Below, one piece after another: positions 24,339-63,569 of a DNA stretch of 64,000 nucleotides. Below the pieces are notes generated by a model, which was not told the DNA's origin, made no database searches, and worked only from the letters and a program-made list of their open reading frames with translations. This DNA is from Sneathiella sp. P13V-1 (GTDB lineage: Bacteria; Pseudomonadota; Alphaproteobacteria; Sneathiellales; Sneathiellaceae): positions 496,001 through 560,000 of the forward strand of contig NZ_WYEU01000001.1 in the NCBI RefSeq assembly GCF_015143595.1, written 5' to 3'. How positions within the stretch are numbered: the stretch's first letter is position 1; every line of letters starts with the position of its first letter. Both the position numbers and the translations under genes were made by a program.

Positions 24339-24815
24339 TTACAGCCGGAAGATCCCGTAGCCCAAAGCGCGGGCGCGTTCGACAAAGCTCGCCGGATCGT
24401 CATCCTCGATCGCCGAGGGTGCGACGGGAAATCCGCGTTCCTCGACAAAGGCGCGCGCTCGGACCTTGTCACGCATCAGGTCGATGACCTCGGACGTCGG
24501 GCCGACAAAGGTCACTCCGGCTTTTTCCAGCGCCGCGACAAAACCGGCATTCTCTGACAGAAAGCCATAGCCGGGATGCACCGCATCCGCGCCGATCTTT
24601 TTTGCAGCCTCGACGATCTGAGGGATATCCAGATAGGCGGCCACGGGCGTCGGGCCATCGATGGTCACGATCTCGTCGGCAATCAGGTGGGCGGGCCCCT
24701 TCTGCTCCGACGTATGGCGCAGCACAGCCGTCGCAAGGCCTCGGGCCTTGGCGGTGCGCAACACGCGCGCCGCGATCTCACCCCGATTGGCGACCAGGAG
24801 TTTCGAAATGGTCAT
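24339..24815 (-). pseudogene. Truncated biotin carboxylase (N-terminal domain only)
   Basis: The 158 aa cover the biotin-carboxylase N-terminal Rossmann domain (ISKLLVANRGEIAARVLRTA; DAVHPGYGFLSENAGFV; TFVGPTSEVIDLMRDK) and then end at ARALGYGIFRL, just where the ATP-grasp domain should begin (normally GYP followed by a Lys-Pro and a glycine loop). ATP-grasp, B and BCCP domains are missing. It is a different paralogue from the complete enzyme at 51,753. It follows the AtuA-like gene by 12 bp, so an atuF/liuD-like gene was once here. Confidence 0.85.
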
Positions 24816-24827
24816 GGTGTCGTCCTC

Positions 24828-26627
24828 TTAGTTCGGGTTCGCGGCATTCAGCCCGTCACGTGCGGCCAGATCGGACGGCACGGGAATTTCGATATCAAGC
24901 AGCATTTGCGCGAACCCTTTGCCCTGCGGGTCGATGCGGACCGAGGCGATGCCGCCACCGCCAAGCGATTCGTGCAGCAGGAAGTTAAGCGAATGGCTTC
25001 CGGCAAGGTCGAATCGCTCGACCTTGCCTTCGCAGACATGGGAGAAATAGTCTTTCACCACCTCTTCGCTGAGAGCTGAGCGGATATATGGCAGGTAGTC
25101 TGGCTTGCGCGCAAGGATGCCGATATTGGCGATATCCCCCTTGTCGCCCGAGCGGCCCCAGGCCAGATCGACGAGGCGCACCTTGACCGCGTCCGGACCG
25201 GGCTCGCGGCTATCTGCGGGCGGCGCAGCAGGCGGATCAAGGTGGACTGGCGTGGTGGCCACGGTGACGGGCACTTCCTTGCCGTCGACCTCGACTGCGA
25301 CGGGGGTCTCGGCCTTGCTCTGCAGGAAGGAGAACAGACGGACCACCGGCTGCACCTTTGGCCGTCCGGCGAAGAACCCGGTTAGACCCTGCGCGGTCGA
25401 AATCGCCATCGGTGCGATTTCTCCGGCAAAGATGTTCAGCGCGGCGCGATCGTCATGGACCGCGCCGATCTTGAGCACCACCTCGCGGGTCCGGGCGCGC
25501 GCATTTGCGCCATAGGCCGCCTCGGCCCCCAGCACCTCGACGCTGACCTGCCGGAAATCGCCCATGTTCCGGTCGCGGAAAATCCGGTGGCAGCGGGTCA
25601 GGATCGCCTCGGCCACGCGCTCGGCCTTCGCAGGTGCATCAATCGCGGCCAGTGTCAGTGTGGAGACAGCGCGCCAGCCATCGGCATGGGTCGCCGACAC
25701 CTTGTAGCTGTCGGTGCGCCCTAGCCCCCTGCCGCCCTTGACCAGCACCTGATCAGGTCCGACCTGTTCCAGGGTGACCCCGGACCAGTCGCAGATCACG
25801 TCGGGCAACAGGTAAGCGCGCGGGTCCCCGATTTCATAAAGCATCTGCTCTCCGACTGACCCGGGCACGACCAACCCGCCTGTGTCAGGCGTCTTGGTCA
25901 TAATGAAACTGCCGTCTTCGGACACCTCGACGACGGGCATCCCCATGTTGTCCCAACCTGGCACGTCCTGCCAGTCGGTGAAGTTGCCGCCCGTTCCCTG
26001 GGGGCCGCATTCGATCAAGTGGCCGGCCAGCGATCCCTGGCTGAGCTTGTCCCAGTCGTCATCGCCCCAGCCGTATTCATGCATCAGGGGACCAAGCGCG
26101 ACCGCGCTGTCGGCGCAGCGCCCGGTGATCACGATGTCGGCCCCGGCATCCAGCGCCGCCGAGATCGGGCGAGCACCCAGATAGGCATTCATGCTCCAGA
26201 TATCGTCTGGAAATTCTACACCCGAGAACATTTCCGTCTGACCGCTTTTGCGAATTTCATCGGCCCTAGGCAACAGGTCATCGCCCAGCACGACACCGAC
26301 CGAGAGATCAATCCCGGCCTCGGCGGCGGCTTTGGCAAGCGCATCACGGCAGCCACGCGGGTTCACGCCCCCGGCATTGGCAACGACCTTGATGCCCTGA
26401 CGCTTGATTGCAGGCAGCCACGGAACAAGCGCCTTTACGAAGTCCGGCGCATAGCCCGACTCGGGCGTTTTGGCGCGCGCCCGCGCCATCAGCGACATAG
26501 TCACCTCCGCCAGATAGTCAAAAACCAGATAGTCGATCTCGCCCTTTGAGACCAGTTGACCGATCGCTTCCGGTGTATCACCCCAGAAGCCCGATGCGCA
26601 TCCGATGCGCAGTTTTCGTTCCGACAT
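24828..26627 (-). CDS. AtuA-family (DUF1446) acyclic terpene utilisation protein
   Basis: A 599-aa DUF1446 protein: N-terminal KLRIGCASGFWGDTPEAIGQ, VVANAGGVNPRGC, ITGRCADSAVALGPLMHEYG and a C-terminal AtuA-like domain (VRLVDLAWGRSGDKGDIANI). In Pseudomonas AtuA is required for growth on citronellol and geraniol and is proposed to act late in removal of the beta-methyl group. It forms a short operon with the enoyl-CoA hydratase upstream (21 bp) and the biotin-carboxylase remnant downstream. Strongest pointer to a terpenoid-like substrate. Confidence 0.88.
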   Translation of the reverse strand: MSERKLRIGCASGFWGDTPEAIGQLVSKGEIDYLVFDYLAEVTMSLMARARAKTPESGYAPDFVKALVPWLPAIKRQGIKVVANAGGVNPRGCRDALAKAAAEAGIDLSVGVVLGDDLLPRADEIRKSGQTEMFSGVEFPDDIWSMNAYLGARPISAALDAGADIVITGRCADSAVALGPLMHEYGWGDDDWDKLSQGSLAGHLIECGPQGTGGNFTDWQDVPGWDNMGMPVVEVSEDGSFIMTKTPDTGGLVVPGSVGEQMLYEIGDPRAYLLPDVICDWSGVTLEQVGPDQVLVKGGRGLGRTDSYKVSATHADGWRAVSTLTLAAIDAPAKAERVAEAILTRCHRIFRDRNMGDFRQVSVEVLGAEAAYGANARARTREVVLKIGAVHDDRAALNIFAGEIAPMAISTAQGLTGFFAGRPKVQPVVRLFSFLQSKAETPVAVEVDGKEVPVTVATTPVHLDPPAAPPADSREPGPDAVKVRLVDLAWGRSGDKGDIANIGILARKPDYLPYIRSALSEEVVKDYFSHVCEGKVERFDLAGSHSLNFLLHESLGGGGIASVRIDPQGKGFAQMLLDIEIPVPSDLAARDGLNAANPN

Positions 26628-26648: not shown

Positions 26649-27434
26649 TTAGCGGCCTGTCCATTCAGGTTTGCGTTTCGAAATGAAGGCATCAAAGCCT
26701 TCGCGCGCGTCTTCGGTCTGCGCTACTCGCGGCAAAAGTGTTTCTGCAAACCGCATTTGCTGCGGATAGGTCATGTCCTCCATCGCGTGACAGGCGTATT
26801 TTCCCAGCCGGATCGCGCTTGGCGACTGCGCAGCAATCTGGGCAACCAGTTCTGCAACCTTCTCGTCCAACCCCGCGGCATCGGTCACATAGTTGACCAG
26901 ATTGAATTGCAGGGCTTCCTCGGCCGTCAGAGGAACGCCGGTGATGAACATCTCCATCAGCCTCCGCCGGGGCAAAACACGCATCATAGGTGGCACGATC
27001 GTCATGGGAAACAGACCCACCTTCACTTCCGGCGTTCCGATGCGCGCATGATCCGCCATTACCGCAAGGTCGCAGGCACAGATGATGCCCACCCCCGCCC
27101 CCATCGCGACGCCGTTTATACGCGCGATCGTTGGCTTTCGGCACGCCTGTATCGTTTCGAATAACCTTCCGGCAAAATGATCCGGGTCCGAGGGATCCTG
27201 AACAAACGGGCCGCCATCCGCACCCGCCTTGATGTCACCCCCGGCACAGAAGGCGCGCTCGCCCTCGCCGGTCAGAACGATCACACGACAATCGCTGTCA
27301 CTCTCGGCAGCTCGCATGGCGGCCATGACCCCGTCTGCGACCTCGCGGTTGAGGGCATTTCGATTATCAGGACGCCGAATCGCGATACGCACTTCATTGC
27401 CACACGCCTGCGATTGAACAACGCTCTCAGTCAT
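26649..27434 (-). CDS. Enoyl-CoA hydratase (crotonase family)
   Basis: A 261-aa crotonase. Oxyanion-hole glycines lie in FCAGGDIKAG and NGVAMGAGVGII. The two catalytic glutamates of rat enoyl-CoA hydratase have counterparts in GTPEVKVGLFP and RRRLMEMFITG, so true hydratase activity is likely; among the four crotonases here it alone keeps both. I chose ATG 27434 (GGGGGAG upstream) over the longer frame. Its promoter region holds the palindromic operator at 27512 shared with the divergent dehydrogenase operon. Confidence 0.85.
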   Translation of the reverse strand: MTESVVQSQACGNEVRIAIRRPDNRNALNREVADGVMAAMRAAESDSDCRVIVLTGEGERAFCAGGDIKAGADGGPFVQDPSDPDHFAGRLFETIQACRKPTIARINGVAMGAGVGIICACDLAVMADHARIGTPEVKVGLFPMTIVPPMMRVLPRRRLMEMFITGVPLTAEEALQFNLVNYVTDAAGLDEKVAELVAQIAAQSPSAIRLGKYACHAMEDMTYPQQMRFAETLLPRVAQTEDAREGFDAFISKRKPEWTGR

Positions 27435-27511
27435 ATTCGAAGCTCCCCCTGTGTGATCTGGGCACCATGCTTTCAAACCTTAGGTCTTTAAGAACTTGGC
27501 TTGATTTATTT

Positions 27512-27527
27512 TCTAACATATGTTTGA
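27512..27527. promoter_or_regulatory. Palindromic operator, divergent promoter region 1
   Basis: TCTAACA-TA-TGTTTGA: arms of the 16-bp palindrome found at four catabolic promoters, one mismatch in the right arm. It lies 78 bp from the hydratase ATG and 41 bp from the acyl-CoA dehydrogenase ATG. Probable binding site of the tandem TetR repressor. Confidence 0.65.
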
Positions 27528-27568: not shown

Positions 27569-28783
27569 ATGGCGACTCAAAGTGAGACTATCGCGGCTGA
27601 TCTGGAAGCCATCAGGGCGAACTATTCTTTGACCGATCAGCAACGCCAGATTGTCGATCACGTGGATCGGGTATCGCGCGAGGTGCTGCACCCACTGCAG
27701 GCGCGCATGGATGACGAGGAATGGTGGCCCGATGATCTGTTCAAGCAGATGGGCGAACTAGGCTTGCTGGGGATTACCGCGCCGGAGGAGCTAGGTGGAT
27801 CGGGACAGAACGAGTTCACCCAGGCGCTGGTGTCCGAGGTGATTTCGAAGTGGAATCCGGCTGTGGGCCTCTCGCACGGGGCGCATGACAACCTGTGCCT
27901 GAACAACCTGCTGCGCAACGGATCCGAAGAGCAGGTGAAGAAATATGTGCCGGGCCTTTGCTCCGGCGACTTGGTTGGTGCTCTGGGCCTAACCGAACCG
28001 GGTGCGGGATCCGATGCGCTTGGGTCCATGGCGACCACTGCGCGCCGCGACGGCGACGAATACGTCATCAACGGCTGGAAGATCTACATCACCAACGGGC
28101 CGATCGCCGATGTGATCCTGCTTTATGCCAAAACCGACAAGTCGAAGGGCGCCAAGGGCATTTCTGCTTTTATCATCGAGACGGACAATCCTGGTTTCAA
28201 GGTGGCGCAAAAGCTTGACAAGATGGGCTTCCGCGGCTCGCCAACCGGAGAACTGGTGTTTGAGGATTGCCGCGTACCCGCATCCGCCATGGTTGGACAG
28301 GAAAACACCGGCGTTTCGGTGGTAATGAGCGGGCTGGATCTGGAGCGTGCTATGGTTGCCTCAGTCTGCGTTGGCATGGCCGAACGTGCGCTGGAACTGG
28401 GTCTGGAATACGCCAAGATTCGCGAACAATTCGGCAAGCCGATTGCTAGTTTCCAGATGATGCAGTCGAAACTGGCCGAGATCTACACCGAGGTCGAAAC
28501 CGCGCGTGCCTTCAGTTATCGAGCCTTGGCCGCCTGTACCGGCCTGCCGAAAGGGGCCGGGGGCCGCGGTGAAATCCACAAACTGACCGCGGCGGCCTGT
28601 CTTTACGCAGGCGAGGCATTCAACAAGGCGGTGACCGAAGCCTGCCATATTCATGGTGGCTCTGGCTACATGCAGGACACCGAGATTAACCGGCTGTTCC
28701 GCGCCAACAAGCTGCTGGAAATCGGCGCGGGTACAAGCGAAGTCCGCAAAATCATCATTGCCGAAGAACTTTTGCGCGCCTGA
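27569..28783 (+). CDS. Acyl-CoA dehydrogenase, isovaleryl/citronellyl-CoA type
   Basis: A 404-aa flavoprotein dehydrogenase. The C-terminal motif is EIGAGTSEVRK, as in isovaleryl-CoA dehydrogenase, which lacks the usual YEGT glutamate; the alternative catalytic Glu of that group is present in SGLDLERAMVA. FAD-binding ALGLTEPGAGSDALGS and ITNGPIADVIL are intact. It would desaturate a branched acyl-CoA. Start at ATG 27569 after GGGAGG; the longer frame would run through the operator. First gene of a six-gene operon to 32,552. Confidence 0.9.
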   Translation: MATQSETIAADLEAIRANYSLTDQQRQIVDHVDRVSREVLHPLQARMDDEEWWPDDLFKQMGELGLLGITAPEELGGSGQNEFTQALVSEVISKWNPAVGLSHGAHDNLCLNNLLRNGSEEQVKKYVPGLCSGDLVGALGLTEPGAGSDALGSMATTARRDGDEYVINGWKIYITNGPIADVILLYAKTDKSKGAKGISAFIIETDNPGFKVAQKLDKMGFRGSPTGELVFEDCRVPASAMVGQENTGVSVVMSGLDLERAMVASVCVGMAERALELGLEYAKIREQFGKPIASFQMMQSKLAEIYTEVETARAFSYRALAACTGLPKGAGGRGEIHKLTAAACLYAGEAFNKAVTEACHIHGGSGYMQDTEINRLFRANKLLEIGAGTSEVRKIIIAEELLRA

Positions 28784-28796
28784 GGGGGACGAGACC

Positions 28797-29996
28797 ATGA
28801 ACAAGCAACTGCGCAACGACACCGCTCTGCCAACACATTTCATGACGGACGAACAGCAGGCCCTGGCCGATCAGGCCGGCAAGTTCTTCATGTCCGAATT
28901 CCACCATCTGAATGCGGAAATGGACGATACAGATGACCTGCCGCCTTCGGTTTTCCCCAAGCTGGGCGAGATGGGATATCTCGGCCTGAACGTGCCGCCG
29001 GAATTTGGCGGCGCGGGGCTGGATTTTACCTCGGCCTGTATCATCACCGAGGAAATGTCGCGCGCCTCGGCGGCCATCGGACTGACCCATGTGGCCCATG
29101 ACAATTTGTGCGTCAACAATATCTACCGCAACGCCAATGACGAGTTGCGCCGAAAATACCTGCCAGGTCTGTGCGACGGCACGCTGGTGGGTGCCCTGGG
29201 TCTGACCGAACCCGGCGCGGGGTCTGATGCGCTTGGCTCGATGCGGACCACGGCCAAAAAGGATGGCGACGACTACATCCTGAACGGCGCCAAGATCTAC
29301 ATCACCAATGGGCCGATTGCCGATCTGGTGCTGGTCTATGCCAAGACATCGCCCGAAAAAGGGGCCAAGGGCATTTCCGCCTTTATCGTGGAAACCGACA
29401 CGCCCGGTTTCAAGGTGGCGCAGAAGCTGAACAAGATGGGATTCCGCGGCTCGCCGACGGGCGAACTGGTATTCGAAGATTGCCGTGTTCCGGCCAGAAA
29501 CATGGTCGGCAAGCTGGATGGCGGGGTTGCCGTTACCATGTCCGGACTTGATCTGGAACGTGCCATCGTCTGTTTCAACGCTCTGGGCATTGCGCAGCGG
29601 GCGCTGGATATTTCCATCGATTACGCCAAGACACGCCAGCAATTCGGCAAACCGATCGCCAGTTTTCAGATGGTTCAGGCGATGCTGGCCGACATGTATA
29701 CGCAGATCGAGGCCGCGCGGAGCCTGTCCTTGCGCACCGCTGCCATGTGTGAAGGCCTCGAAGAGGGCGAAGGCGGGCGCGGCGAAATACACAAGCTCAC
29801 CGCTGCGGCGATCTACAAGGCCGCTGAGGCGACATCCTTCGTGCTGGACAAAGCTGTCCAGATTCACGGCGGCTCGGGTTACATGCGTGATACAGAAGTG
29901 AACCGGCTATACCGGACCGGTCGCGTGCTTGAGGTCGGCGCAGGCACCCAGGAGGTTCGCAAACTCATCATCTCTGGCGAATTGCTGAAGAACTAG
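28797..29996 (+). CDS. Acyl-CoA dehydrogenase, isovaleryl/citronellyl-CoA type (second copy)
   Basis: A 399-aa paralogue of the preceding gene with the same layout: ALGLTEPGAGSDALGS, SGLDLERAIVC (catalytic Glu of the isovaleryl-CoA dehydrogenase type) and VLEVGAGTQEVRKLI at the C-terminus. Sequence conservation between the two is high through the centre, suggesting a tandem duplication that diverged for different chain lengths or stereoisomers. It begins 13 bp after its neighbour (GGGGGA ribosome site). Confidence 0.9.
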   Translation: MNKQLRNDTALPTHFMTDEQQALADQAGKFFMSEFHHLNAEMDDTDDLPPSVFPKLGEMGYLGLNVPPEFGGAGLDFTSACIITEEMSRASAAIGLTHVAHDNLCVNNIYRNANDELRRKYLPGLCDGTLVGALGLTEPGAGSDALGSMRTTAKKDGDDYILNGAKIYITNGPIADLVLVYAKTSPEKGAKGISAFIVETDTPGFKVAQKLNKMGFRGSPTGELVFEDCRVPARNMVGKLDGGVAVTMSGLDLERAIVCFNALGIAQRALDISIDYAKTRQQFGKPIASFQMVQAMLADMYTQIEAARSLSLRTAAMCEGLEEGEGGRGEIHKLTAAAIYKAAEATSFVLDKAVQIHGGSGYMRDTEVNRLYRTGRVLEVGAGTQEVRKLIISGELLKN

Positions 29997-30005
29997 GGGC
30001 GGAAC

Positions 30006-30860
30006 ATGAACGAAGCGAAATCAAGGCGTTACGCGTCGGATCTCATGGCGGGTCAAGTTGCCCTGGTCACGGGGTCCGGATCTGGAATGGGCCGGGCGAC
30101 GGCGATCGAAATGGCCGCTTGCGGGGCAAGGCTTGCGCTGTTCGCGCGCCGCGAAGAGCCGCTGGAAGAGACCGCCGAAATGATCCGGGCGGCGGGGGGC
30201 GAGGCCTTTGTCGTGCCCGGAGACACCCGCGACGAAGACAGTATCGAAGCTGCGATGGGGCGGATCAAGGACCACTATGGGCAGTTGGATGTTTTGGTGA
30301 ACAATGCCGGCGGCCAGTATATCGCGGCCGCCCGCGATATCACCAACAAGGGCTTCGAAGCCGTGATCCGCAACAACCTGATCGGATCTTGGCAGATGAC
30401 CCGGGCAGCGGCGGATCACTTCATGTACGACAATGGTGGATCGGTTGTGTTTGTCACCGCCATCTCTGCGCGCACCGCGCTTACCGGCTTTACACACACC
30501 GTCGCCGCCCGCGCCGGTGTGACGGGCATGATGAAAACGCTGGCCGCCGAATGGGGCGAGTACGGCATCCGGCTGAACTGTGTCGCGCCGGGCACGATCA
30601 AGACCGATGCGCTTGGCCGCTATCCGATTCCGCCGGAACAGTGGAAAAAGCTGAACCGCTCGGTGCTAAACCGGATGGGGGCGGCCGAGGACATCGCAGG
30701 CACGATCATTTTCCTGGCCTCGAAACTTGGCGGTTTCATCACCGGAGAAGACATTTATGTAGACGGCGGTGAGACCTTGCATATGGGTCATGACGCGCGG
30801 GACATGATCAACCCCGCGATGTTCGAGAAACGCGAACGGGGAGATGGCAAGAATGAATAA
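30006..30860 (+). CDS. SDR of the 2,4-dienoyl/trans-2-enoyl-CoA reductase type
   Basis: A 284-aa short-chain dehydrogenase/reductase. The cofactor motif is VTGSGSGMGRATAIE, then VLVNNAGGQYI, and the C-terminal FITGEDIYVDGGETL. The classical YxxxK pair is replaced by AARAGVTGMMKTLAAEWG, as in peroxisomal enoyl-CoA reductase (PECR) and dienoyl-CoA reductase, so an NADPH-dependent reduction of an unsaturated acyl-CoA is the best guess. It overlaps the next gene by 8 bp. Confidence 0.82.
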   Translation: MNEAKSRRYASDLMAGQVALVTGSGSGMGRATAIEMAACGARLALFARREEPLEETAEMIRAAGGEAFVVPGDTRDEDSIEAAMGRIKDHYGQLDVLVNNAGGQYIAAARDITNKGFEAVIRNNLIGSWQMTRAAADHFMYDNGGSVVFVTAISARTALTGFTHTVAARAGVTGMMKTLAAEWGEYGIRLNCVAPGTIKTDALGRYPIPPEQWKKLNRSVLNRMGAAEDIAGTIIFLASKLGGFITGEDIYVDGGETLHMGHDARDMINPAMFEKRERGDGKNE

Positions 30861-31656
30861 ACAGCCCGTCCTTCTGGAGATTTCCGACAGGATCGCTACG
30901 GTTACGCTGAACGACCCCGAGCGGCGCAACCCGGTCACCGGCAACGACATGATCGCTGCCCTTCTGGAGACCTTCGCCAAGGTGCAGGCCGATCCTCAGG
31001 TCAGCGTGATGATCCTGACCGGGGCCGACCCGGCCTTTTGTGCAGGCGGGGACATCAAGGAGATGAACGATCCCGACAGCGTGTTCCGCAAGGAGCCGCT
31101 GGCGGCGGCGCAGAGCTATGTTGATGGGGTGCAGCGGCTGCCGCTTGCGCTCTACAACATGGATATTCCGACGATCGCCGCAGTCAACGGCCCGGCGGTG
31201 GGCGCGGGGTGCGACCTGACCATGATGTGCGACATGCGCATCGCGTCAGAAAAAGCAAGGTTCGGCGAGGTGTTTCTGAATCTCGGAATCATTCCGGGCG
31301 ATGCGGGCAGCTGGTTCCTGTTGCGTCGTCTGGGCCACCAGAAGGCCGCCGATCTGACCTTCTCGGGGCGCATGGTCGAGGCCAAGGAAGCGCTGGAGCT
31401 TGGTATGGTGCTTGAACTTGTGCCTCATGAAAAATTGATGGAACGGGCCCGTGAACGGGCCGCTGTCATCGCCGCGAAACCGCCGCGCGCGGTGCGGGTC
31501 GCCAAGCGTCTGATGCGCAATGCCGAACGGATGGACCTGCCGGATTTCCTGAATTCCGCGGCGGCCTATCAGGCGCTCATGCATCAGACCGAAGACCACC
31601 ACGAGGCGGTTGCTGCGTTCGTCGAAAAACGAAAACCCAATTTCACGGGGCGTTAA
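30853..31656 (+). CDS. Enoyl-CoA hydratase/isomerase family protein
   Basis: A 267-aa crotonase-fold protein (FCAGGDIKEM; NGPAVGAGCDLTMMCDMR; FGEVFLNLGIIPGDAGS). Where classical hydratases have the catalytic Glu of the PEILLG loop it has Phe (EVFLNLG), and the second Glu is Asp (KAADLTFSG). It may therefore be an isomerase, hydrolase or retro-Claisen-type crotonase instead of a hydratase. ATG 30853 is preferred over 30844 because GGGGAG is correctly spaced for it. Confidence 0.82.
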   Translation: MNKQPVLLEISDRIATVTLNDPERRNPVTGNDMIAALLETFAKVQADPQVSVMILTGADPAFCAGGDIKEMNDPDSVFRKEPLAAAQSYVDGVQRLPLALYNMDIPTIAAVNGPAVGAGCDLTMMCDMRIASEKARFGEVFLNLGIIPGDAGSWFLLRRLGHQKAADLTFSGRMVEAKEALELGMVLELVPHEKLMERARERAAVIAAKPPRAVRVAKRLMRNAERMDLPDFLNSAAAYQALMHQTEDHHEAVAAFVEKRKPNFTGR

Positions 31657-31668
31657 AGGAAAGATCGC

Positions 31669-32151
31669 ATGTCAGACATCACCCAAAAGAAGATGGAGCA
31701 AATCGCGCAGATGTGGAATGCGCGCGGCAAGGGTCTGATAACGCATATGGCGCTTGAGATCGAAGAGGTCTCGACGGAAGGTGTCCGGGTTCGGATGCCG
31801 TTCAATCCGGACTTTTGCGTCGATGCGGAACAATCGCTGCTCCACGGTGGTATCCTGACGGCACTTCTGGACAGTGTCTTTGGACTGGCGAACTTTGTTG
31901 CCATCGAAGGCGTCAGTACCATGGCCACTCTTGACCTCAGAGTTGATTACCTGCGCCCGGCCCGTTCGCGCGCGGATGTCATCGTTCAAACGCATTGTTT
32001 TCGCAAGACCCGCCACATCGCCTTCAATTCCGGCAGCGTCTGGTTCGCGGGCCATGAGGATGCTGAAATAGCTAGGGGAACCGCCTCGTTTGCATTGACG
32101 CGCGGCGAAACCAGCCTGTTTGACGCAATGACAAAAGGAAAAACCTCGTGA
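31669..32151 (+). CDS. PaaI-type hotdog thioesterase
   Basis: A 160-aa hotdog-fold acyl-CoA thioesterase (4HBT). The signature LLHGGILTALLDSVFGLAN holds the oxyanion HGG turn and the catalytic Asp position; STMATLDLRVDYLRPA is the conserved second strand pair. It probably hydrolyses a CoA intermediate to relieve CoA trapping. It is 12 bp after the crotonase gene and overlaps the next thioesterase by 4 bp. Confidence 0.88.
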   Translation: MSDITQKKMEQIAQMWNARGKGLITHMALEIEEVSTEGVRVRMPFNPDFCVDAEQSLLHGGILTALLDSVFGLANFVAIEGVSTMATLDLRVDYLRPARSRADVIVQTHCFRKTRHIAFNSGSVWFAGHEDAEIARGTASFALTRGETSLFDAMTKGKTS

Positions 32152-32552
32152 TGGACGTGCAAACTGTCAATGCCAATGTATCCCGGGTGCCGTTCTTCCG
32201 ATTTCTCAACTTTGAGGTCAGAAGTCTAGACAGTCTCCATGCTGAGGCGGAAATGACCTTTGATGACCGCCATATCGGTAACCCGATCATGGAGTACTAC
32301 CATGGCGGCATAATCGCGAGTTTTATGGAGGCCACTGCCGCCATCGCGGTACAGCCCGATTTCGCCGACGTTCCGGCCAAGCCGATCAACCTGACCGTCG
32401 ATTACCTCAGACCCGGTACAAAAGGCCCGCTTTTTGCGCGGGCTAATGTCACGCGCAAGGGCAATCGGATGGCGAGCGTTAGCGTGCTGAGCTGGCAGGT
32501 GGAACGGCAGAAGGCAATTGCCGAAGGACTGTATCACTTCCTTCTGGTCTGA
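32148..32552 (+). CDS. Second PaaI-type hotdog thioesterase
   Basis: A 134-aa hotdog protein (PIMEYYHGGIIASFMEATAAI; PINLTVDYLRPGTKGPLFAR). It may start at GTG 32148 or ATG 32151, both inside the stop of the previous thioesterase, so the pair is translationally coupled and could form a heteromer. Last gene of the operon, 15 bp from the convergent tandem-TetR gene. Confidence 0.87.
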   Translation: MMDVQTVNANVSRVPFFRFLNFEVRSLDSLHAEAEMTFDDRHIGNPIMEYYHGGIIASFMEATAAIAVQPDFADVPAKPINLTVDYLRPGTKGPLFARANVTRKGNRMASVSVLSWQVERQKAIAEGLYHFLLV

Positions 32553-32567
32553 CAAAGCCAACCGCGT

Positions 32568-33899
32568 TCAGGGCGTGCCTTGTCCCGTGGACGGGGCCGC
32601 CTCCCGGTTACAAATTCCTTCTAGTAACAGATTGATTAGCATGCTGGAGAATTCAAGCAGTGATAGATATCCTTCCACTCCTGCCTTGTTCGGGTCGAAC
32701 CATTCCACCGTCCAGTTTAAGGCGCCCAACATCACTTGGCGCAAGGGGACGATCTTGATATCCGACCTTATAGCGCCGTCGTCCTGAGCTTCACGGAGTA
32801 TCCGATCCCAGAGTTTTCCATATTCATGGCGAATACCCCTGTGCCTCTCCTTGAAATGATTGGGGAGCATTCCATAGCTTCTGATATTCGCCGAGGTGAA
32901 CTCGCTTGCCTTGAAGAGGAAATCCAGGTGCGCCCAGATTGCAGTCGCTATCCTGACGTGATGGTCGTACGGGGCATCGAATTTCCGAACGGCGGTTTCG
33001 ACACCTGATAGCAAGTCCCTTAGTCCGGCGTTTAGAACTTCGTCAACGATCGTTTCCTTGGAGTTGAAATGGTAATAGACGCTACCCGCTTTCATGTCGG
33101 CATCTTCCGCAATCTTTCTCAGAGTCGTCGCCTTGTAGCCATTGTCCCTCAGAACGCGCGCTGCGGCCTTTAGGATTTCTGCACGGGTCTTAGCCGCCTT
33201 GCCGTCGGGTTCCGGGATTTTGAAGGGAGTGGCGGGGCACAGCTTCAAACCTTCGGTATCCGCCCTACAATGCAGACACATTCCGTCAAGTATCAGCTTA
33301 CTCATTCGTTCCGCGAGGATGCGCACCGGATACTTGTCGATATTATACCATTCCACAGTCCAGTTCATGGCGCTCAGGATGAACTGGCGAATGACTGTTG
33401 TGGATATGTCATTTCGAAGGTGACCGGCGCGCTTGGCGTCATTTAGGAATCTGCCCCAGGCCCCTGCATATGAAGCACGCAATTCGCGATGCGGGGCGCG
33501 TGTTTCTTCCGACAACATCGGATAGTTCCGAATATTGGCCGACGTGAAGTCGCTGTCGGTCAACAGATAGGTAAGGTGTGTTTCAATCAGCAATTCGAAG
33601 GTCTTGCGAAAATCCTCCGAACTTGTTGTTGCCGACCGAACGATTTCACTGACCATCTCATAAAGCTGACGCACACCAAGTTCGAGGACTTCGTTCAGAA
33701 TCTGGTCCTTGGATTGAAAATGGTAATAAATGCTGCCGGCCTCAATGCCAGCTTCCTGCGCAATGTCGCGCATCGTCGTTGCGTGATAGCCTTCATACCG
33801 AAAAAGTCGCGCGGCCGCAGCGAGTATGACTTCGCGGGTCCTCTCAGACTTGCTCAGATTGTCATTCACTATCCTGGTATCTTCAATCCGTAGTGCCAT
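32568..33899 (-). CDS. Tandem (double) TetR-family repressor
   Basis: A 443-aa protein made of two complete TetR repressors in one chain. Half 1 (about residues 1-210): HTH TMRDIAQEAGIEAGSIYYHF, ligand domain ending MNWTVEWYNIDKYPVRILAE. Half 2 (about 225-443): HTH TLRKIAEDADMKAGSVYYHF, ligand domain ending LNWTVEWFDPNKAGVEGYL. Both halves share NIR.Y.ML and the NWTVEW motif, so this is an internal duplication. A Cys-containing linker (MCLHCRADTEGLKLC) joins them. The operator palindrome at 33946 lies 47 bp upstream, suggesting autoregulation and control of the cluster. Confidence 0.93.
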   Translation of the reverse strand: MALRIEDTRIVNDNLSKSERTREVILAAAARLFRYEGYHATTMRDIAQEAGIEAGSIYYHFQSKDQILNEVLELGVRQLYEMVSEIVRSATTSSEDFRKTFELLIETHLTYLLTDSDFTSANIRNYPMLSEETRAPHRELRASYAGAWGRFLNDAKRAGHLRNDISTTVIRQFILSAMNWTVEWYNIDKYPVRILAERMSKLILDGMCLHCRADTEGLKLCPATPFKIPEPDGKAAKTRAEILKAAARVLRDNGYKATTLRKIAEDADMKAGSVYYHFNSKETIVDEVLNAGLRDLLSGVETAVRKFDAPYDHHVRIATAIWAHLDFLFKASEFTSANIRSYGMLPNHFKERHRGIRHEYGKLWDRILREAQDDGAIRSDIKIVPLRQVMLGALNWTVEWFDPNKAGVEGYLSLLEFSSMLINLLLEGICNREAAPSTGQGTP

Positions 33900-33945
33900 T
33901 CATTATCGATACTTGTCCGAGATGAGTTTGTCCATTGCAAAAAAA

Positions 33946-33961
33946 TCTAATAACTGTTAGA
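33946..33961. promoter_or_regulatory. Palindromic operator at the tandem-tetR / SDR divergent promoters
   Basis: TCTAATA-AC-TGTTAGA: the 16-bp palindrome with one mismatch in the left arm. It sits in the 126-bp gap between the regulator and the BadH-like SDR, placed to repress both. Confidence 0.7.
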
Positions 33962-34025
33962 ATTCATCAAAGAGAGCATAGAATCAAACTCTTTACAAGG
34001 TGCAACGGAAGAGGAGGACCTCCAC

Positions 34026-34787
34026 ATGCGAGGGTTGAGTGGAAAACGGGTCATTGTGACCGGCGGTGGGAGCGGCATTGGCCGAGCGGTTTGCGAAATG
34101 TTCGGCGCAGAAGGTGCCGAAGTCGCCGTTTTTGATCTGAACAAGGCCGGGGCGGATGAAACTACCAAAATAATCACCGAGGCCGGCGGAAAAGCGACGG
34201 CATTTCAGGTGGATATTACCGATCGTGCCCAGGTCGACAAGGCCGTTGCCGAGTTCGAATCCGGCGGACCGATCGATGTACTGGTGAACAACGCCGGCTG
34301 GGACGTGATCAAACCGTTCCTCGACACCGATGCCGATCTTTGGAAGAAGGTCATCGACATCAATCTTTATGGACCGCTTAACATGCATCACGCGGTGCTT
34401 CCGGGCATGGTCAAAAACGGCGGCGGCCGCGTGGTCAACATCGCGTCCGACGCCGGCCGCGTCGGATCATCCGGCGAGGCTGTGTATTCGGCCTGCAAGG
34501 GTGGCATCATCTCGTTCACCAAGACCGTGGCGCGCGAACTGGCACGCAAAAATATTCAATTGAACGCGGTCGCCCCCGGACCGACCGACACCCCGCTGTT
34601 CGCTCAGGTTGCCGAGGGCGAAGCCGGTCAAAAGATCGCCGAGGGTCTCAAGCGGGCGATCCCAATGAAGCGCCTAGCGCAGCCGAAAGATTACCCTGGC
34701 ATCATCTGTTTTCTGTCGTCCGACGACGCGGGATTCATCACCGGTCAGGTGATTTCGGTTTCGGGCGGCTTGTCCATGCACGGTTAA
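34026..34787 (+). CDS. 2-Hydroxycyclohexanecarboxyl-CoA dehydrogenase-like SDR (BadH type)
   Basis: A 253-aa SDR with intact cofactor motif (VIVTGGGSGIGRAVCE), NNAGWDVIKPF, catalytic Ser and YxxxK (IASDAGRVGSSGEAVYSACK) and FITGQVISVSGGLSMHG. These segments match my recollection of BadH of Rhodopseudomonas palustris closely, including NNAGWD and the GSSGEAVY stretch. BadH oxidises 2-hydroxycyclohexane-1-carboxyl-CoA before ring opening. GAGGAGG precedes the ATG. It is transcribed alone and ends at the terminator at 34855. Confidence 0.85.
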   Translation: MRGLSGKRVIVTGGGSGIGRAVCEMFGAEGAEVAVFDLNKAGADETTKIITEAGGKATAFQVDITDRAQVDKAVAEFESGGPIDVLVNNAGWDVIKPFLDTDADLWKKVIDINLYGPLNMHHAVLPGMVKNGGGRVVNIASDAGRVGSSGEAVYSACKGGIISFTKTVARELARKNIQLNAVAPGPTDTPLFAQVAEGEAGQKIAEGLKRAIPMKRLAQPKDYPGIICFLSSDDAGFITGQVISVSGGLSMHG

Positions 34788-34854: not shown

Positions 34855-34881
34855 GGCCGCACCTTAAGTGCGGCCCTTTTT
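34855..34881 (+). terminator. Rho-independent terminator after the BadH-like gene
   Basis: An 8-bp stem (GGCCGCAC / GTGCGGCC), CTTAA loop and a CTTTTT tail. It separates the SDR transcript from the CoA-ligase gene and argues that the ligase starts at ATG 34901, not at the GTG inside the hairpin. Confidence 0.8.
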
Positions 34882-34900
34882 CATTGCAGAAAGTTTACAA

Positions 34901-36838
34901 ATGTTTCAGCCAGACTCTGACATCCGGCGGACAAGCACGCTGACCGCATTTCTGAAAGACTGCGGTCTTGACAGTTACGAGGAGCTCGTCCGCCGCTCGA
35001 ATGAAGAGCCGGACTGGTTCTGGCGCCGGGTCATCGACCATGCCGGGATACGGTTCGCGCGGCCCTACACCCGGTTGCGAGATATCTCCGAAGGGTCCGA
35101 ATCTGTCAGGTGGGCCGTCGGGGGTACTTTGAATCTGACGGAAACCTGTCTTGACGCCCGAATTACCGATGGCCTGGGCGACAAGGTCGCAATCGACTGG
35201 GTCGGTGAAGACGGAAGCCGCCGCCACTGGACCTATTCCGAACTTGCCGCCGAAGCCTCCCGCGTCGCCTCAGCCCTTGCCGCGCGCGGTGTAAAGCCCG
35301 GTCAGGCAGTGGGCATCTATATGCCGATGATCCCCGAAATCGAGGCCGCGCTTCTGGGTATTGCCCGGCTGGGCGCGGTTGCGGTGCCGCTGTTTTCCGC
35401 CTTTGCGCCCCATGCCATCGTATCGCGTCTGAACGATGCCGCTGCGGTTGCGGTGCTGACAGCGGATGCCACATCCCGACGAGGTAAGCCGGTCTGGATG
35501 GAGGCGAGCCTTGCCCAGGCTTTGACCGACGTGCCATCGGTTCATACCGTGATCAGCCTGCGACGGTTCGGCGGCGCGGCGGCCGATCCGGCCCGCGATT
35601 TGGACTGGACCGAAACTGTCGACCGCGCCAGTCCGGAGTTTTCCGCCGTTCCGGTCAAGGCCGCAGACAACTTTTTGATCGCCTATACTTCGGGCACCAC
35701 CGGGCGGCCTAAAGGTGTCGTGCATACCCATTTGGGGGCGCAGGCCAAGGCCAAGGCCGATTTCCTGCTTTGTCTCGACATGAAACGGGACGACCGGCAT
35801 CTTTGGATGACCGACATGGGATGGGTCATGGGGCCGCTCACCCTTTTGTCGGTGCTCTTGTCCGGTTCGACTCTGGTGCTGGCCGAGGGTGCACCATCAA
35901 TACCCGGCGATCCCTTCAGGCTGTTGCGTCTTGCGTCCGAGATGGAGGTCACGCATCTTGGCCTGGCCCCGACTTTGGTGCGGCAGTTCATGACGCAGGA
36001 TACTGAACCTTTGTCGGGTTACAACTTGTCGCCCCTGCGCATTGTCGCCTCGACCGGTGAACCCTGGACCGACGACGCCTGGCTCTGGCAGCTCGATCAT
36101 ATCTGCCGCCGCCGTGCCGTGCCGCTGAACATCTCGGGCGGGACCGAGCTTTTTGGCGCGATCCTGACCTCGACTGTGCTGCACGAGATCAAGCCCGGAG
36201 GATTTTCGGCTCAGGCCCTGGGTGTCGGGGCCAAAGTGCTGCGTCAGGACAGCGGCGAAGCCACACCGGGCGAAGTGGGCGAACTGGTCGTGACTCAGCC
36301 GCCTCTGGGTTTGACCCCGGCCATCTGGGGGGACCGCGATCGCTACCTTGAAACCTATTGGTCCACCTTCCCCGGCCTCTGGCGGCACGGCGACTGGGTG
36401 CGCTGCGATCCAGACGGGACTTGGTATATCCTGGGCCGGTCTGACGACACGCTGAACATCGCCGGTAAACGCATCGGCCCGCCCGAGGTCGAGGCCGCCC
36501 TGACCGAATCCGGAGAGGTGGTCGACGCCGCTGCCATCGCGGCACCTGATGACATCAAGGGCGTGGCCGTTATCTGCGTCTGCGTGGCGGCGCCAAATGT
36601 GTCGCCGGACGAGGAGCTCGTGAACCGGCTCAAGGATCGGGTCGGAGAGATCGTCTCGAAACCATTCCGCCCGCGCGAGATCCACTTTGTCGAGGCGCTG
36701 CCCAAGACCCGCAGCATGAAAACCATGCGCCGTGTCGTGCGCGCCGCCTTTCTCGGTGAAGATCCGGGCGATCTGTCGTCTATCAGCAACCCGGAAACAA
36801 TTCAGCCCATCGCAGACCTGCAAAAGGATAAGTCATGA
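34901..36838 (+). CDS. Acetyl/acetoacetyl-CoA-synthetase-like AMP-forming ligase
   Basis: A 645-aa ANL-superfamily ligase. The P-loop is LIAYTSGTTGRPKGVVHTH, the adenine motif NISGGTELFGAI, the A8 hinge region GRSDDTLNIAGKRIGP, and the C-terminal lysine motif KTRSMKTMRRV (Met replaces the usual Gly before Lys). The N-terminal WFWRRVIDHAGIRF segment is that of acetyl/acetoacetyl-CoA synthetases. It would activate a small carboxylic acid such as a pathway product. Start at ATG 34901; no strong ribosome site. It overlaps the next gene by 4 bp. Confidence 0.85.
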   Translation: MFQPDSDIRRTSTLTAFLKDCGLDSYEELVRRSNEEPDWFWRRVIDHAGIRFARPYTRLRDISEGSESVRWAVGGTLNLTETCLDARITDGLGDKVAIDWVGEDGSRRHWTYSELAAEASRVASALAARGVKPGQAVGIYMPMIPEIEAALLGIARLGAVAVPLFSAFAPHAIVSRLNDAAAVAVLTADATSRRGKPVWMEASLAQALTDVPSVHTVISLRRFGGAAADPARDLDWTETVDRASPEFSAVPVKAADNFLIAYTSGTTGRPKGVVHTHLGAQAKAKADFLLCLDMKRDDRHLWMTDMGWVMGPLTLLSVLLSGSTLVLAEGAPSIPGDPFRLLRLASEMEVTHLGLAPTLVRQFMTQDTEPLSGYNLSPLRIVASTGEPWTDDAWLWQLDHICRRRAVPLNISGGTELFGAILTSTVLHEIKPGGFSAQALGVGAKVLRQDSGEATPGEVGELVVTQPPLGLTPAIWGDRDRYLETYWSTFPGLWRHGDWVRCDPDGTWYILGRSDDTLNIAGKRIGPPEVEAALTESGEVVDAAAIAAPDDIKGVAVICVCVAAPNVSPDEELVNRLKDRVGEIVSKPFRPREIHFVEALPKTRSMKTMRRVVRAAFLGEDPGDLSSISNPETIQPIADLQKDKS

Positions 36839-43464: not shown

Positions 43465-45498
43465 TCAGAGATCCTGCGCCAGGCGCACACCCTCATCAAT
43501 GGCGCGCAGCGCATCCAGTTCGGCGGCCTCCTTTGCCCCGCCGACCATCGTAACCGGGACGCTGCGCGCGGCAAGCTCTTGGGCCAGGGCCCGTTCCGGT
43601 TCCTGACCGGTGCACAGCACAATTGTATCGGCTGCGATGACCTTTGGCATTCCGTCCGCGACGATATGCAGCCCCGCATCGTCGATATATTCATAGGTCA
43701 CGCCGCCCATTGCCTCGACCCCATGTTTGCGCAGCGCGTTGCGCAGGATCCACCCTGTCGAAACACCAAGCCCCGCCCCCGGTTTAGCGGTCTTGCGCTG
43801 CAGCATGACGACCTTGCGGCGCGACGGCTTCGGTGCCAGAGGGTCGCCCGCCAGGGCACCCGAGGGGACAAATTCGGGGTCCACACCCCAGGTTTCGCAA
43901 AAGACGTCGGAATTGGCGGTCTCGGCGGGTTCGGTCACCAGGAACTCGGCCACATCATGACCGATGCCCCCCGCCCCCATCACCACGACACGGTCGCCCG
44001 CCTCGCGGTCACCGGACAGAATTTCGGCATAGGTCGCGACGCTGGGATGGTCGATACCCGGCAGGTCGGGAATGCGCGGCGTGACCCCGGTGGCGATAAC
44101 AACATGGTCATATTCGTCAAGATCGCTCGCCTCTGCCCGATGTCCCAGACGCAGCGAGACCCCGTGTTTCTGCATCTGACCGGCATAATACCGCAGAGTT
44201 TCGTCGAACTCGTCCTTGCCCGGTGCCGCGCGCGCCAGGTTCAGTTGACCACCCAGCTTGTCCTGCGCCTCGAACAGCGTGACATCGTGGCCCAGCCGCG
44301 CCGCCTCAGCGGCTGTGGCCATGCCCGCGGCACCACCGCCAACGACGGCCACTTTCTTTGGCGTGTCGGCTGGCGTGTCCCGGAATTCCGTTTCACGCCC
44401 GGCCCTTGGATTGACCAGACATCCGACCGGCCGGTCCGAAAAGATGAAATCTAGGCAGGCCTGGTTGCAGGCGATGCAGGTGTTGATCTCGTCCGCGCGG
44501 CCCTCTCGCGCCTTTTTCACGAAATGCGGATCGGCCAGAAACGGTCGCGCCATCGAGATCATGTCCGCATCGCCAGAGGCAAGTATGTCTTCGGCAAGCT
44601 GGGGTGTGTTGATCCGGTTCGAAGCGACCACTGGGATCGATACCGCCGCTTTGACGTTGGCTGCCGCCTTGCGCCAGGCACCACGCGGCACCGGATAGGC
44701 AATCGTCGGCACGCGGGCCTCGTGCCAGCCGATGCCGGTGTTCAGAATATCCGCACCTGCTGCCTCGATCTTGCGCGCCAGTGCGGCAATTTCATCGGCG
44801 GGCGCGCCGCCCTCGACCAGATCGGCCGCCGAAATCCGATAGATGACCAGGAAGTCGGGACCACAGCGTTCACGTACTGCACGCACGATCTCGACCGGGA
44901 ATCGATGACGGTTCTCAGCGCTTCCGCCCCAGTCGTCGTCGCGCTTGTTGGTGTGAGTAACGGTGAATTCATTGATGAGGTATCCCTCGGACCCCATGAT
45001 CTCGACGCCATCGAAGCCTGCGGCCTGCGCATTCGCAGAGGCCACGGCAAAATCCTCAATGGTACGGAGAATGTCGGCTTCGGTCATTTCACGCGGGATG
45101 AAACGGTTGATCGGGGCGCGGATCGGCGACGGGGCCACACACCCTTCGATCTTTGCATAGCGCCCGGCGTGAAGAAGTTGCGCGCAAATCAGGCTACCTT
45201 CGGCTTGCACCGCCTCGCAGATCGGGCGCAGGCTAAGCGCTTCTTCGGGGTCATCGATTCGCGGACCTTCTGGATCGAATATACCCTCGGCATTGGGCGA
45301 AAACCCGCCAGTGACCAGAATAGCCGCTTCCCCCCGCGCACGCTCGGCGTAAAATGCGATCTGTTTGGCTAAGCCGTCAGGCTCGGTTTCCAATCGCGTG
45401 TGCATCGACCCCATGATGACACGATTTCGCAATGCATGCTGGCCTACACGAATAGGGGAAAGCATGGTTTCAAAGCTCCCCGATGGTCTATTTTCCAT
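43465..45498 (-). CDS. 2,4-Dienoyl-CoA reductase-like NADH:flavin oxidoreductase
   Basis: A 677-aa fused flavoenzyme of the FadH/Old Yellow Enzyme class. The N-terminal FMN barrel (RNRVIMGSMHTRLE; ICAQLLHAGRYA) is followed by the 4Fe-4S ligands CIACNQACLDFIF and CLVNP, then an FAD domain (KVAVVGGGAAGMATAAEAAR) and an NAD(P)H Rossmann domain (VVVMGAGGIGHDVAEFL). Reduction of a conjugated dienoyl- or enoyl-CoA is likely; some relatives are dehydrogenases. The ATG at 45498 has GAGGAGG upstream, whereas the longer frame would cross the operator. Confidence 0.9.
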   Translation of the reverse strand: MENRPSGSFETMLSPIRVGQHALRNRVIMGSMHTRLETEPDGLAKQIAFYAERARGEAAILVTGGFSPNAEGIFDPEGPRIDDPEEALSLRPICEAVQAEGSLICAQLLHAGRYAKIEGCVAPSPIRAPINRFIPREMTEADILRTIEDFAVASANAQAAGFDGVEIMGSEGYLINEFTVTHTNKRDDDWGGSAENRHRFPVEIVRAVRERCGPDFLVIYRISAADLVEGGAPADEIAALARKIEAAGADILNTGIGWHEARVPTIAYPVPRGAWRKAAANVKAAVSIPVVASNRINTPQLAEDILASGDADMISMARPFLADPHFVKKAREGRADEINTCIACNQACLDFIFSDRPVGCLVNPRAGRETEFRDTPADTPKKVAVVGGGAAGMATAAEAARLGHDVTLFEAQDKLGGQLNLARAAPGKDEFDETLRYYAGQMQKHGVSLRLGHRAEASDLDEYDHVVIATGVTPRIPDLPGIDHPSVATYAEILSGDREAGDRVVVMGAGGIGHDVAEFLVTEPAETANSDVFCETWGVDPEFVPSGALAGDPLAPKPSRRKVVMLQRKTAKPGAGLGVSTGWILRNALRKHGVEAMGGVTYEYIDDAGLHIVADGMPKVIAADTIVLCTGQEPERALAQELAARSVPVTMVGGAKEAAELDALRAIDEGVRLAQDL

Positions 45499-45535
45499 TT
45501 TGATCCTCCTCCTCAAAATTACTCTTGATCTATAT

Positions 45536-45551
45536 TCTAACATCTGTTAGA
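45536..45551. promoter_or_regulatory. Palindromic operator, perfect copy
   Basis: TCTAACA-TC-TGTTAGA, a perfect 7-2-7 palindrome in the 93-bp gap between the flavoenzyme (minus) and the ten-gene operon (plus). Best copy in the window and the reference for the consensus. Confidence 0.8.
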
Positions 45552-45591: not shown

Positions 45592-46773
45592 ATGCAATTC
45601 CAGCCTACAGAAGATCAAAAGGCGTTTCGCGAAACCGCGAAGCGCTTCGCAACTGAGAAACTTGCGCCCACTTATCAAGAGCGCGCAAGCGGCCACACCT
45701 TTGATCGCGCCCTGATCAAAGAGATGGGCGCACTGGGCCTGATCGGGGCCGATCTGCCTGAAGAATTCGGTGGGCTGGGCGAAAGCTCTGTCACGTCGGG
45801 GCTGATCGTCGAAGAGATCGCCTATGCCGATTTCAACGCAAGTTACGTGCAGCTTCTGGGCTCTCTCATGGGCGGCATGGTGGCCAAGCACGCGTCCAAA
45901 GAGATCGCATCGGAATGGGTTCCCAAAGTTGTTTCGGGTGAAGCTGTCATTGGTCTGGGTCTGACCGAGCCGCGTGGCGGGTCAGATGCGGCCAATCTGA
46001 TTCTAAAGGCGGAGAAATCTGGGAACGGATGGCGGTTGAACGGCGAGAAAACCTCGATGAGCTTTGCGTCCCAGGCCGATGCTGCCGTGGTTTTCGCGCG
46101 CACTGGCGATCCTAACGGCGGCTCACGCGGGGTCAGCGCCTTTTTCGTCGACCTGAACCAGGAAGGCATCAAGCGCACCCATTTTGACGACATCGGCACC
46201 AAGCCTGTCGGGCGCGGGTCGGTGTTCTTTGACGATGTTTTCGTGCCGGCCGAAAATATGATGTCGGAACAGGACCGTGCCTTTGGCACGATCATGGTGG
46301 GCTTCGACTATTCCCGCGCACTGATCGGGCTGGAGTGCCTGGGGGCCGCGCAAGCGTCGGTGGATGAAACCTGGGCCTACGTTCAGGAACGCGAGGCATT
46401 CGGGGCCCCGATCGTGCAGTATCAGGGTGTCAGCTTTCCCTTGGCCGAGGCCGAGACCCAACTGACCATGATGCGCCAGCTTTGCTATTACACGCTGGAC
46501 CTGCGCGACCGTGGCCTGCCCCACACCTCTCAGGCCGCCATGTGCAAATGGTACCTGCCCAAAACCGCCTGCGAGATCCTGCACCAGTGCCTGATCCTGC
46601 ACGGACATTACGGCTACACCACCGACCTGCCCCACCACCAGCGCTACAACGATGTGCTCGGCCTGCAGATCGGTGACGGCACCGCGCAGATCCAGAAGCT
46701 GGTGATCGCCCGCGAGAAGGTCGGTCGCATGGCGCTGCAGTATGACAAGAAAGCGAAGGGAGCCTCGAAATGA
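45592..46773 (+). CDS. Acyl-CoA dehydrogenase, cyclohexanecarboxyl-CoA (AliB)-like
   Basis: A 393-aa acyl-CoA dehydrogenase (IGLGLTEPRGGSDAANLILK). Where most members have the YEGT glutamate it has QIGDGTAQIQKL, an Asp; the alternative helix Glu is also missing (GFDYSRALIGLE). Asp in place of Glu is a feature I associate with alicyclic acyl-CoA dehydrogenases, such as those acting on cyclohexane- or cyclohexene-carboxyl-CoA. This suggests a ring substrate. First gene of the operon 45,592-57,611, with AAGGAGGAG before the start and the perfect operator 41 bp upstream. Confidence 0.87.
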   Translation: MQFQPTEDQKAFRETAKRFATEKLAPTYQERASGHTFDRALIKEMGALGLIGADLPEEFGGLGESSVTSGLIVEEIAYADFNASYVQLLGSLMGGMVAKHASKEIASEWVPKVVSGEAVIGLGLTEPRGGSDAANLILKAEKSGNGWRLNGEKTSMSFASQADAAVVFARTGDPNGGSRGVSAFFVDLNQEGIKRTHFDDIGTKPVGRGSVFFDDVFVPAENMMSEQDRAFGTIMVGFDYSRALIGLECLGAAQASVDETWAYVQEREAFGAPIVQYQGVSFPLAEAETQLTMMRQLCYYTLDLRDRGLPHTSQAAMCKWYLPKTACEILHQCLILHGHYGYTTDLPHHQRYNDVLGLQIGDGTAQIQKLVIAREKVGRMALQYDKKAKGASK

Positions 46774-63553: not shown

Positions 63554-63569
63554 TCTAACGTTTGTTAGA
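63554..63569. promoter_or_regulatory. Palindromic operator upstream of the transglutaminase-MaoC-FadE operon
   Basis: TCTAACG-TT-TGTTAGA, one mismatch from the perfect palindrome at 45536. It lies 16 bp before the ATG at 63538, where a bound repressor would block transcription or initiation. Confidence 0.75.

Follow-up and report, generated by a model that had tools for sequence, protein, structure and literature searches.

Mce3R (Rv1963c, PDB 9b7y) of Mycobacterium tuberculosis, in the accessible part of its description, carries two TetR units in a chain folded into a single pseudo-dimer, is autoregulated and linked to lipid metabolism genes, and has a 25-bp, non-palindromic operator (PMC11667970). 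The protein elutes as a homodimer with its own DNA duplex for each protomer, and looping was suggested by the authors; the same excerpt mentions '204 putative double TFRs in Actinomycetes' (PMC11667970). Engineered single-chain TetRs also fold intramolecularly, as stated for sc-rtTA in the available excerpt (PMC1797012, citing Krueger 2003). Among single-domain TetRs, the dimer of BkaR (Rv2506) binds a palindrome with a 16-bp core, according to the portion of the report at hand (PMC3920632). In the literature accessible to us, a single protein, from a mycobacterium and with an asymmetric operator, represents the double TetRs. None from proteobacteria was among the matches listed from open-licence papers; an earlier mention in other bacteria may exist.

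The window, i.e. the whole stretch of 64,000 nucleotides analysed from Sneathiella sp. P13V-1, contains a double tetR gene on the minus strand (32568..33899), an ATG-initiated ORF of 443 aa with zero internal stops. The Pfam model PF00440 (TetR_N) matched the protein in two stretches with 125.6 bits against a curated cutoff of 24 (E 6e-37), and TetR_C_24 was also matched in two stretches (E 9.8e-28). The protein therefore belongs to the TetR family of regulators (TFR) and, with two complete TetR units per chain, is a double TFR of the Mce3R architecture. The initial annotation, made from the sequence alone, had recognised two complete TetR units in this 443-residue gene, and the intact ORF with both pairs of domains confirms this; the architecture as a novelty was not borne out, as double TetRs had been described already (Mce3R). 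The first HTH domain (TetR_N, residues 25-71; 33687..33827) and the first ligand domain (TetR_C_24, residues 101-206; 33282..33599) were placed by Pfam. They are followed by a linker (residues 209-233; 33201..33275) that is poorly conserved (0.40) and was modelled with lower confidence, by the second HTH domain (residues 242-288; 33036..33176), found by Pfam and placed via alignment to the first, and by the second ligand domain, whose helices from 281 to 427 (32619..33059; all features on the minus strand) were taken from the predicted model and column conservation. The HTH strings first reported were found as described, AGSIYYHF at residues 54-61 and AGSVYYHF at residues 271-278. The statement that both ligand domains end in NWTVEW held in part: the motif is present (179-184 and 395-400), but it sits in the eighth helix, and in the predicted model one more helix follows in each half (192-208 and 414-427). 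The name given by NF041196 (ScbR family autoregulator-binding, equivalog) was not adopted. Its score of 162.3 against a cutoff of 150 sums two stretches, so that the cutoff may be passed only through the doubleness of the protein.

The N half and the C half of the protein are 40% identical (84/208; E 6e-51). Identity is 27/47 in the DNA-binding parts and 38% (55/144) in the ligand domains, with 9 of 12 positions of helix 6 identical and an FTSANIR stretch common to both ligand domains. Mean column identities of the N and C halves were 0.83 and 0.85 for the HTH and 0.79 and 0.81 for the ligand domain. The two different ligand pockets of the initial annotation, sensing two pathway intermediates, were neither favoured nor contradicted by the analysis. 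The recognition-helix motif G-S-x-Y-Y-x-F-x-S-K was invariant in both halves of 44 sequences; the residue preceding the recognition helix was an invariant E at position 53 and K, E or Q at the equivalent position 270.

A scan with one genome per species yielded 170 stretches encoding relatives, of which the best 80 were retained as loci. Both HTH strings were located within one ORF in 79 of these 80 loci, the exception (L060) being cut by a contig end, and the search for further proteins with two TetR units in one chain, as initially suggested, was thus successful. Identity of the best 80 loci to the double TetR of the window ranged from 53% to 93%, and the loci derived mainly from Roseobacter-group genera, but also from Bradyrhizobium, Mesorhizobium, Enterovirga, Paracoccus and others. 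Among 191 relatives' genomes, matches at E 1e-60 or better were obtained in 10, all within the 24 genomes of the window's genus (its own included), and all 15 matched places in these 10 genomes span both halves. Of 385 genomes drawn evenly from the class, only three, all of the same genus, had both-half matches, and four others had single-length ones. When 398 genomes of the phylum were drawn and the single-domain paralogue described below served as query, two other genomes matched (E 1e-38), both single-length. These draws and the best 80 loci indicate that the double TetR is common in some groups and rare overall. A candidate triple TetR in L074, L075, L079 and L080 was rejected, because these loci actually carry the double gene and then, closely downstream, an additional separate single tetR of 220 aa.

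An AlphaFold2 model of the double TetR, built from 44 sequences (43 of the 80 loci in the structure alignment), reached a pLDDT of 85.6 and a pTM of 0.84. In the VIA comparison, residues 16-431 of the model were aligned to residues 10-401 of Mce3R (9b7y_A) with Z 27.5 (rmsd 4.5 over 368/385 residues). Mce3R was alone among the 50 listed entries in matching both halves; the remaining 49 were aligned over at most 199 residues with Z no higher than 18.4. Foldseek also placed 9b7y first (E 8.5e-10, 424 columns, TM 0.63/0.71, rmsd 6.3). The rmsd values of 4.5-6.3 Å across the two alignments count against the match to Mce3R. The predicted arrangement of the single chain, whose modelling had been proposed as a check, is very probably a single-chain pseudo-dimer, in agreement with Mce3R; the internal pseudo-dimer of the initial annotation finds its computational support in this predicted fold and in the operator argument given below. 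The preference of AlphaFold for a pseudo-dimer may stem from the commonness of TetR dimers.

The palindrome TCTAAC-N4-GTTAGA occurred with at most one mismatch at four sites in the window, against 0.03 in 30 shuffles of the part from 24.3 to 64 kb. The predicted operator TCTAATAACTGTTAGA (33946..33961), one mismatch away from the palindrome, is flanked by the double tetR and, in divergent orientation, the badH-like gene. It overlaps the -10 hexamer of a promoter-like match of the badH-like gene (33935-33963, plus strand; 0.4 such matches expected by chance), which suits repression. The claim that the gene's own promoter carries the regulon palindrome was upheld. A second predicted operator, TCTAACATATGTTTGA (27512..27527), was located in the divergent promoter of an enoyl-CoA hydratase gene (26649-27476) and an acyl-CoA dehydrogenase gene (ATG at 27569). 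The remaining two are exact: TCTAACATCTGTTAGA (45536..45551) lies at the start of a flavin oxidoreductase ORF, overlapping the first codons of its longest form (43465-45543, minus strand), and precedes an acyl-CoA dehydrogenase gene (45592-46773, plus strand); TCTAACGTTTGTTAGA (63554..63569) lies 16 bp ahead of an ATG (63538) belonging to a series of minus-strand genes that includes acyl-CoA dehydrogenase and enoyl-CoA hydratase genes. The looser pattern TCTAA-N6-TTAGA with two mismatches gave 22 sites against 10 expected. Genome-wide, six exact sites were found, compared with 1 for the reversed pattern. Allowing up to one mismatch gave no enrichment, with 9 sites and 21 for the reversed control, and summed over the 23 further genomes of the genus the exact palindrome was no commoner than its reversal (13 and 11). 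Because one-mismatch sites were not enriched genome-wide, the sites at 33946 and 27512 rest on conservation and not on their count, and the regulon outside the conserved block was read from exact sites only. Outside the window, such exact sites precede an SDR-like gene adjoining branched-chain-type ABC transporter genes (C1:576258), nitroreductase-like and aldehyde dehydrogenase genes (C2:53922), carboxyltransferase and biotin carboxylase-like genes (C4:169983), and an enoyl-CoA hydratase-like gene near a single-domain tetR (C2:964219), the '-like' names having been assigned by sequence reading and not by family match.

To follow the operator across the double loci, 250 bp upstream of the gene were inspected in 79 of the 80 (L060 was too short). 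The palindrome with at most one mismatch was present upstream in 78 of these 79 loci, the exception being L071, and it was exact in 60; many of the loci are close kin, so that this figure denotes conservation and not independent trials. With 86 permuted palindromes, a mean of 0.02 loci was matched (maximum 1). The upstream palindrome persisted in loci down to 53-58% protein identity, and in loci carrying it no further site with up to three mismatches occurred within 400 bp. A second site near the acyl-CoA dehydrogenase promoter was found in 66 loci, and in 62 of these it was the one-sided variant TCAAAC-N4-GTTAGA, as at 27512. Operator asymmetry as a mark of specialised halves was rejected, since single-domain relatives also showed one-sided variants.

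The same palindrome was observed near the start of single-domain genes. Of 13 single-domain relatives, seven carried it near their own start with 0-2 mismatches at the nearest site (L105 exact; L107 and L108 one; L097, L106, L060 and L074 two), and L060 also had the second site of the cluster at one mismatch. No palindrome was found near the start in L112, L113, L098, L103 and the second single of L074, and the result for L053 was void, its start having been set too far upstream. In the control with 89 permuted palindromes, which comprised 11 of the 13 relatives, a mean of 0.16 relatives was matched (maximum 2). A single-domain TetR must dimerise to bind its palindrome. The simplest reading is therefore that the fused protein reads the palindrome with its two halves, as single-domain proteins dimerise to read the same site. 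One single-domain relative is encoded in the genome of the double TetR itself: this paralogue (L097, 7815-8432; 205 aa) is 48% identical to the N half and 46% to the C half, and its start is preceded by the palindrome TCTAATTTGAATTAGA. Three palindromes surround it at 5688, 7749 and 9220 of that stretch (two TCTAAT-N4-ATTAGA, one TCTAAC-N4-GTTAGA), and the neighbouring genes, identified partly by sequence reading, are acyl-CoA synthetase, dehydrogenase and carboxylase-like genes that form a parallel cluster. The paralogue thus shares with the double TetR the palindrome type and the acyl-CoA neighbours, but differs in having a single TetR unit. The exact site near it could belong to the regulon of the double protein, and cross-regulation between the two is possible.

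The palindrome was less well kept in the 14 same-genus doubles, which are 39-52% identical to the protein of the window: one had one mismatch (L083), one had two (L082), four had three, and eight had no recognisable site. The four with three mismatches have in common the less symmetric TTGAAC-N4-GTTAGT. A common block, TTTGAACA-N-TTGTTAGTTTTTT, with the less symmetric operator form was observed upstream of the double tetR in L084, L085, L086 and L091. In the eight most diverged same-genus doubles no upstream 9-mer was found in more than 4 of the 8, and an alignment of seven yielded no clear operator. Loss of the palindrome may reflect drift to another operator after the fusion, or simply a different site and regulon. 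We tentatively consider, at somewhat less than even chance, that this is a separately evolved clade of single-chain TetRs that still reads the palindrome of its homodimeric ancestors, with operator symmetry fading stepwise after fusion. If true, fusing a dimer would free the operator from symmetry, from the symmetric form in Roseobacter-type doubles and singles via a less symmetric form to none recognisable, and Mce3R would have reached the end point of the same course on its own.

For the origin of the fusion, an unrooted maximum-likelihood tree was calculated from the N and C halves of 25 double proteins, namely the protein of the window and 24 of 33 hand-picked doubles (nine were omitted for size), together with the 13 single-domain relatives left after removal of near-copies. 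All N halves fell on one side of a branch (99/98), as did all C halves (100/99). Several single-domain relatives were on long branches of this unrooted tree; the N halves had the same-genome paralogue as their nearest single (94/66) and the C halves had L105 (94/84), both placements being without a star. The tree fits one tandem duplication and fusion inside a TetR subfamily, or a fusion of two close paralogues. In searches against PDB chains, 9b7y was fifth for the N half, where the two Mce3R units scored 28.4 and 30.5 bits and the top single-domain chain 92, and 31st for the C half, where the scores were 34 and 64 bits. As judged from these scores, the halves are not closest to the Mce3R halves. 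The duplication-fusion thus looks separate from that of Mce3R, because the halves score closer to some single-domain PDB chains and because the tested N halves and C halves form one clade each.

Conservation of the gene neighbourhood was counted in the 80 loci at a minimum of 60% identity, a match over 60% of the gene and E 1e-20, some of the loci being too short. The divergent BadH-like SDR gene (34026..34787, plus strand; 361 bits, below the TIGR03206 cutoff of 431) was present in 76 of 80 loci and the following acyl-CoA synthetase gene, of the AcsA/acetoacetyl-CoA ligase kind (34868..36838, plus strand; below those cutoffs), in 69. The catabolic run on the other side (27569..32552, plus strand) comprises two acyl-CoA dehydrogenases (62 and 63 loci), an SDR (65), an enoyl-CoA hydratase (30844; 64) and two thioesterases (68 and 69); an NmrA-like protein was encoded nearby in 68 loci, the enoyl-CoA hydratase of 26649-27476 in 46, and an AtuA-family protein (24828..26627, minus strand) in 56. 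Among the NCBIfam rows listed for ten window proteins, three reach their cutoff, namely NF041196 for the double TetR, NF005559 (general SDR subfamily) for the BadH-like protein (227.7 against 215) and a hotdog thioesterase domain model. None of the carboxylases and the transporter part at the exact sites had a best match at its cutoff. Judging from the AtuA-family, BadH-like, thioesterase, carboxylase and branched-chain-type transporter genes, the pathway may act on a branched or alicyclic acid; the accessible open-licence literature on the pathway pointed to no comparable cluster. The structural neighbours of the halves include TetRs with acyl-CoA according to their titles (AibR with isovaleryl-CoA, FadR with stearoyl-CoA or lauroyl-CoA), and as these were solved with acyl-CoA ligands, the effector is by analogy probably a CoA thioester.

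With the double TetR of Shimia biformata the protein shares 93% identity, with doubles of its own genus at most 52%. The GC content, 42-54% up to 24 kb, lies mostly at 56-64% beyond it, with 52% at 32-34 kb, the position of the double tetR. Owing to these identities and the GC shift, the cluster (window 24300-46000) looks horizontally acquired. At the edge of the conserved block, adjoining the AtuA-family gene, a short ORF (24339-24815) with only a biotin carboxylase N-terminal domain was observed, which looks like a truncated carboxylase. Mobile-element genes were also seen left of the cluster, i.e. a Mu-type transposase (15037-16917), a relaxase (18767-19759) and a weak match to ArdA antirestriction protein (20055-20576).

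The intact double ORF, its conservation, the clades of halves, the conserved palindrome and the same palindrome at single-domain genes were all read directly from the sequences. The double TetR is likely a natural single-chain TetR 'dimer' acting on the ancestral palindromic operator and repressing a catabolic acyl-CoA regulon; for its repression and stoichiometry, we infer the following course. In one event common to all tested doubles, an ancestral single-domain TetR gene would have undergone tandem duplication and fusion. The halves, joined via the linker of about 25 residues, would pair within the chain through their last two helices, as do the two subunits of an ordinary TetR dimer, and so would bring a recognition helix, nearly the same in both halves of the protein, to each half-site of a single 16-bp TCTAAC-N4-GTTAGA. 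By occupying their promoters, the protein would then repress its own gene as well as the acyl-CoA catabolic operons that diverge from it or lie nearby, and it would probably be released when one or both ligand domains bind a CoA thioester that is an intermediate of the pathway.

Four predicted operators inside 36 kb of the window, and the Mce3R homodimer with its own duplex per protomer and proposed looping (in the accessible part of PMC11667970), would suit a dimer of double chains, an option already raised in the initial annotation, in which each operator is bound by a pseudo-dimer and two chains bridge distant operators via a DNA loop. We regard this as unlikely but worth considering; it is compatible with the single-chain reading as an addition to it. 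A domain-swapped homodimer, in which the N half finds its partner in either half of another chain, giving four HTHs per working unit, might be permitted by the poorly conserved linker and by the NWTVEW helix kept in both halves. It is considerably less probable, as the single 16-bp site, present in 78 of 79 loci, accommodates two HTHs and the predicted intramolecular packing matches that of Mce3R. Equally improbable is a divided labour in which one half binds DNA and the other is mainly a sensor, with two different ligands: the ligand domains have diverged and residues 53 and 270 differ, but neither the HTHs nor the ligand domains differ much in conservation between the halves, and helix 6 is largely identical. 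That a sequencing error fused two neighbouring tetR genes is practically impossible, since the missed stop near residues 205-225 that would have revealed it is absent from the window and the same fusion recurs in 79 of 80 other records.

The favoured single-chain reading can be set against known regulators as follows. AtuR, the TetR regulator of the atuA cluster, is reportedly, from a title in a reference list, connected with two inverted repeats of 13 bp between atuA and atuR; here, an AtuA-family gene is part of the cluster but is not the divergent neighbour of the double tetR. BkaR, KstR2, AibR and FadR have the same fold as one half (VIA Z of 15.1, 18.2, 18.4 and, for FadR entries, 13.9-17.1) and serve acyl-CoA or related catabolism, but are single-domain homodimers. 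The operator of BkaR has a 16-bp palindromic core like the predicted site, with another sequence, and BkaR was the only regulator to which a literature search with the operator letters led among the matches listed. With sc-rtTA, the protein shares two TetR moieties arranged head to tail with a linker; sc-rtTA is man-made from two TetR copies, whereas the double TetR of the window is natural and its halves have diverged. With a predicted site that is symmetric and is also carried by extant single-domain relatives, one of them in the same genome, this clade would open the causes and course of repressor-dimer fusion to direct testing in laboratory E. coli or harmless marine species, and would be a natural model for single-chain TetR tools built against unwanted heterodimers. 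Mce3R is alike in having two TetR units per chain of about 400-440 aa and in its full-length structural match to the predicted model. No Mce or YrbE name was among the best matches listed for the scanned window proteins (a part of all ORFs); the immediate neighbours of the gene are acyl-CoA enzymes and not an mce/yrbE operon. The site of Mce3R is non-palindromic, whereas the predicted operator of the double TetR is palindromic and its halves are 40% identical. While the architecture is already known from Mce3R, new here are, as far as the sequences indicate, an apparently separate origin and a palindromic predicted operator common to single-domain relatives.
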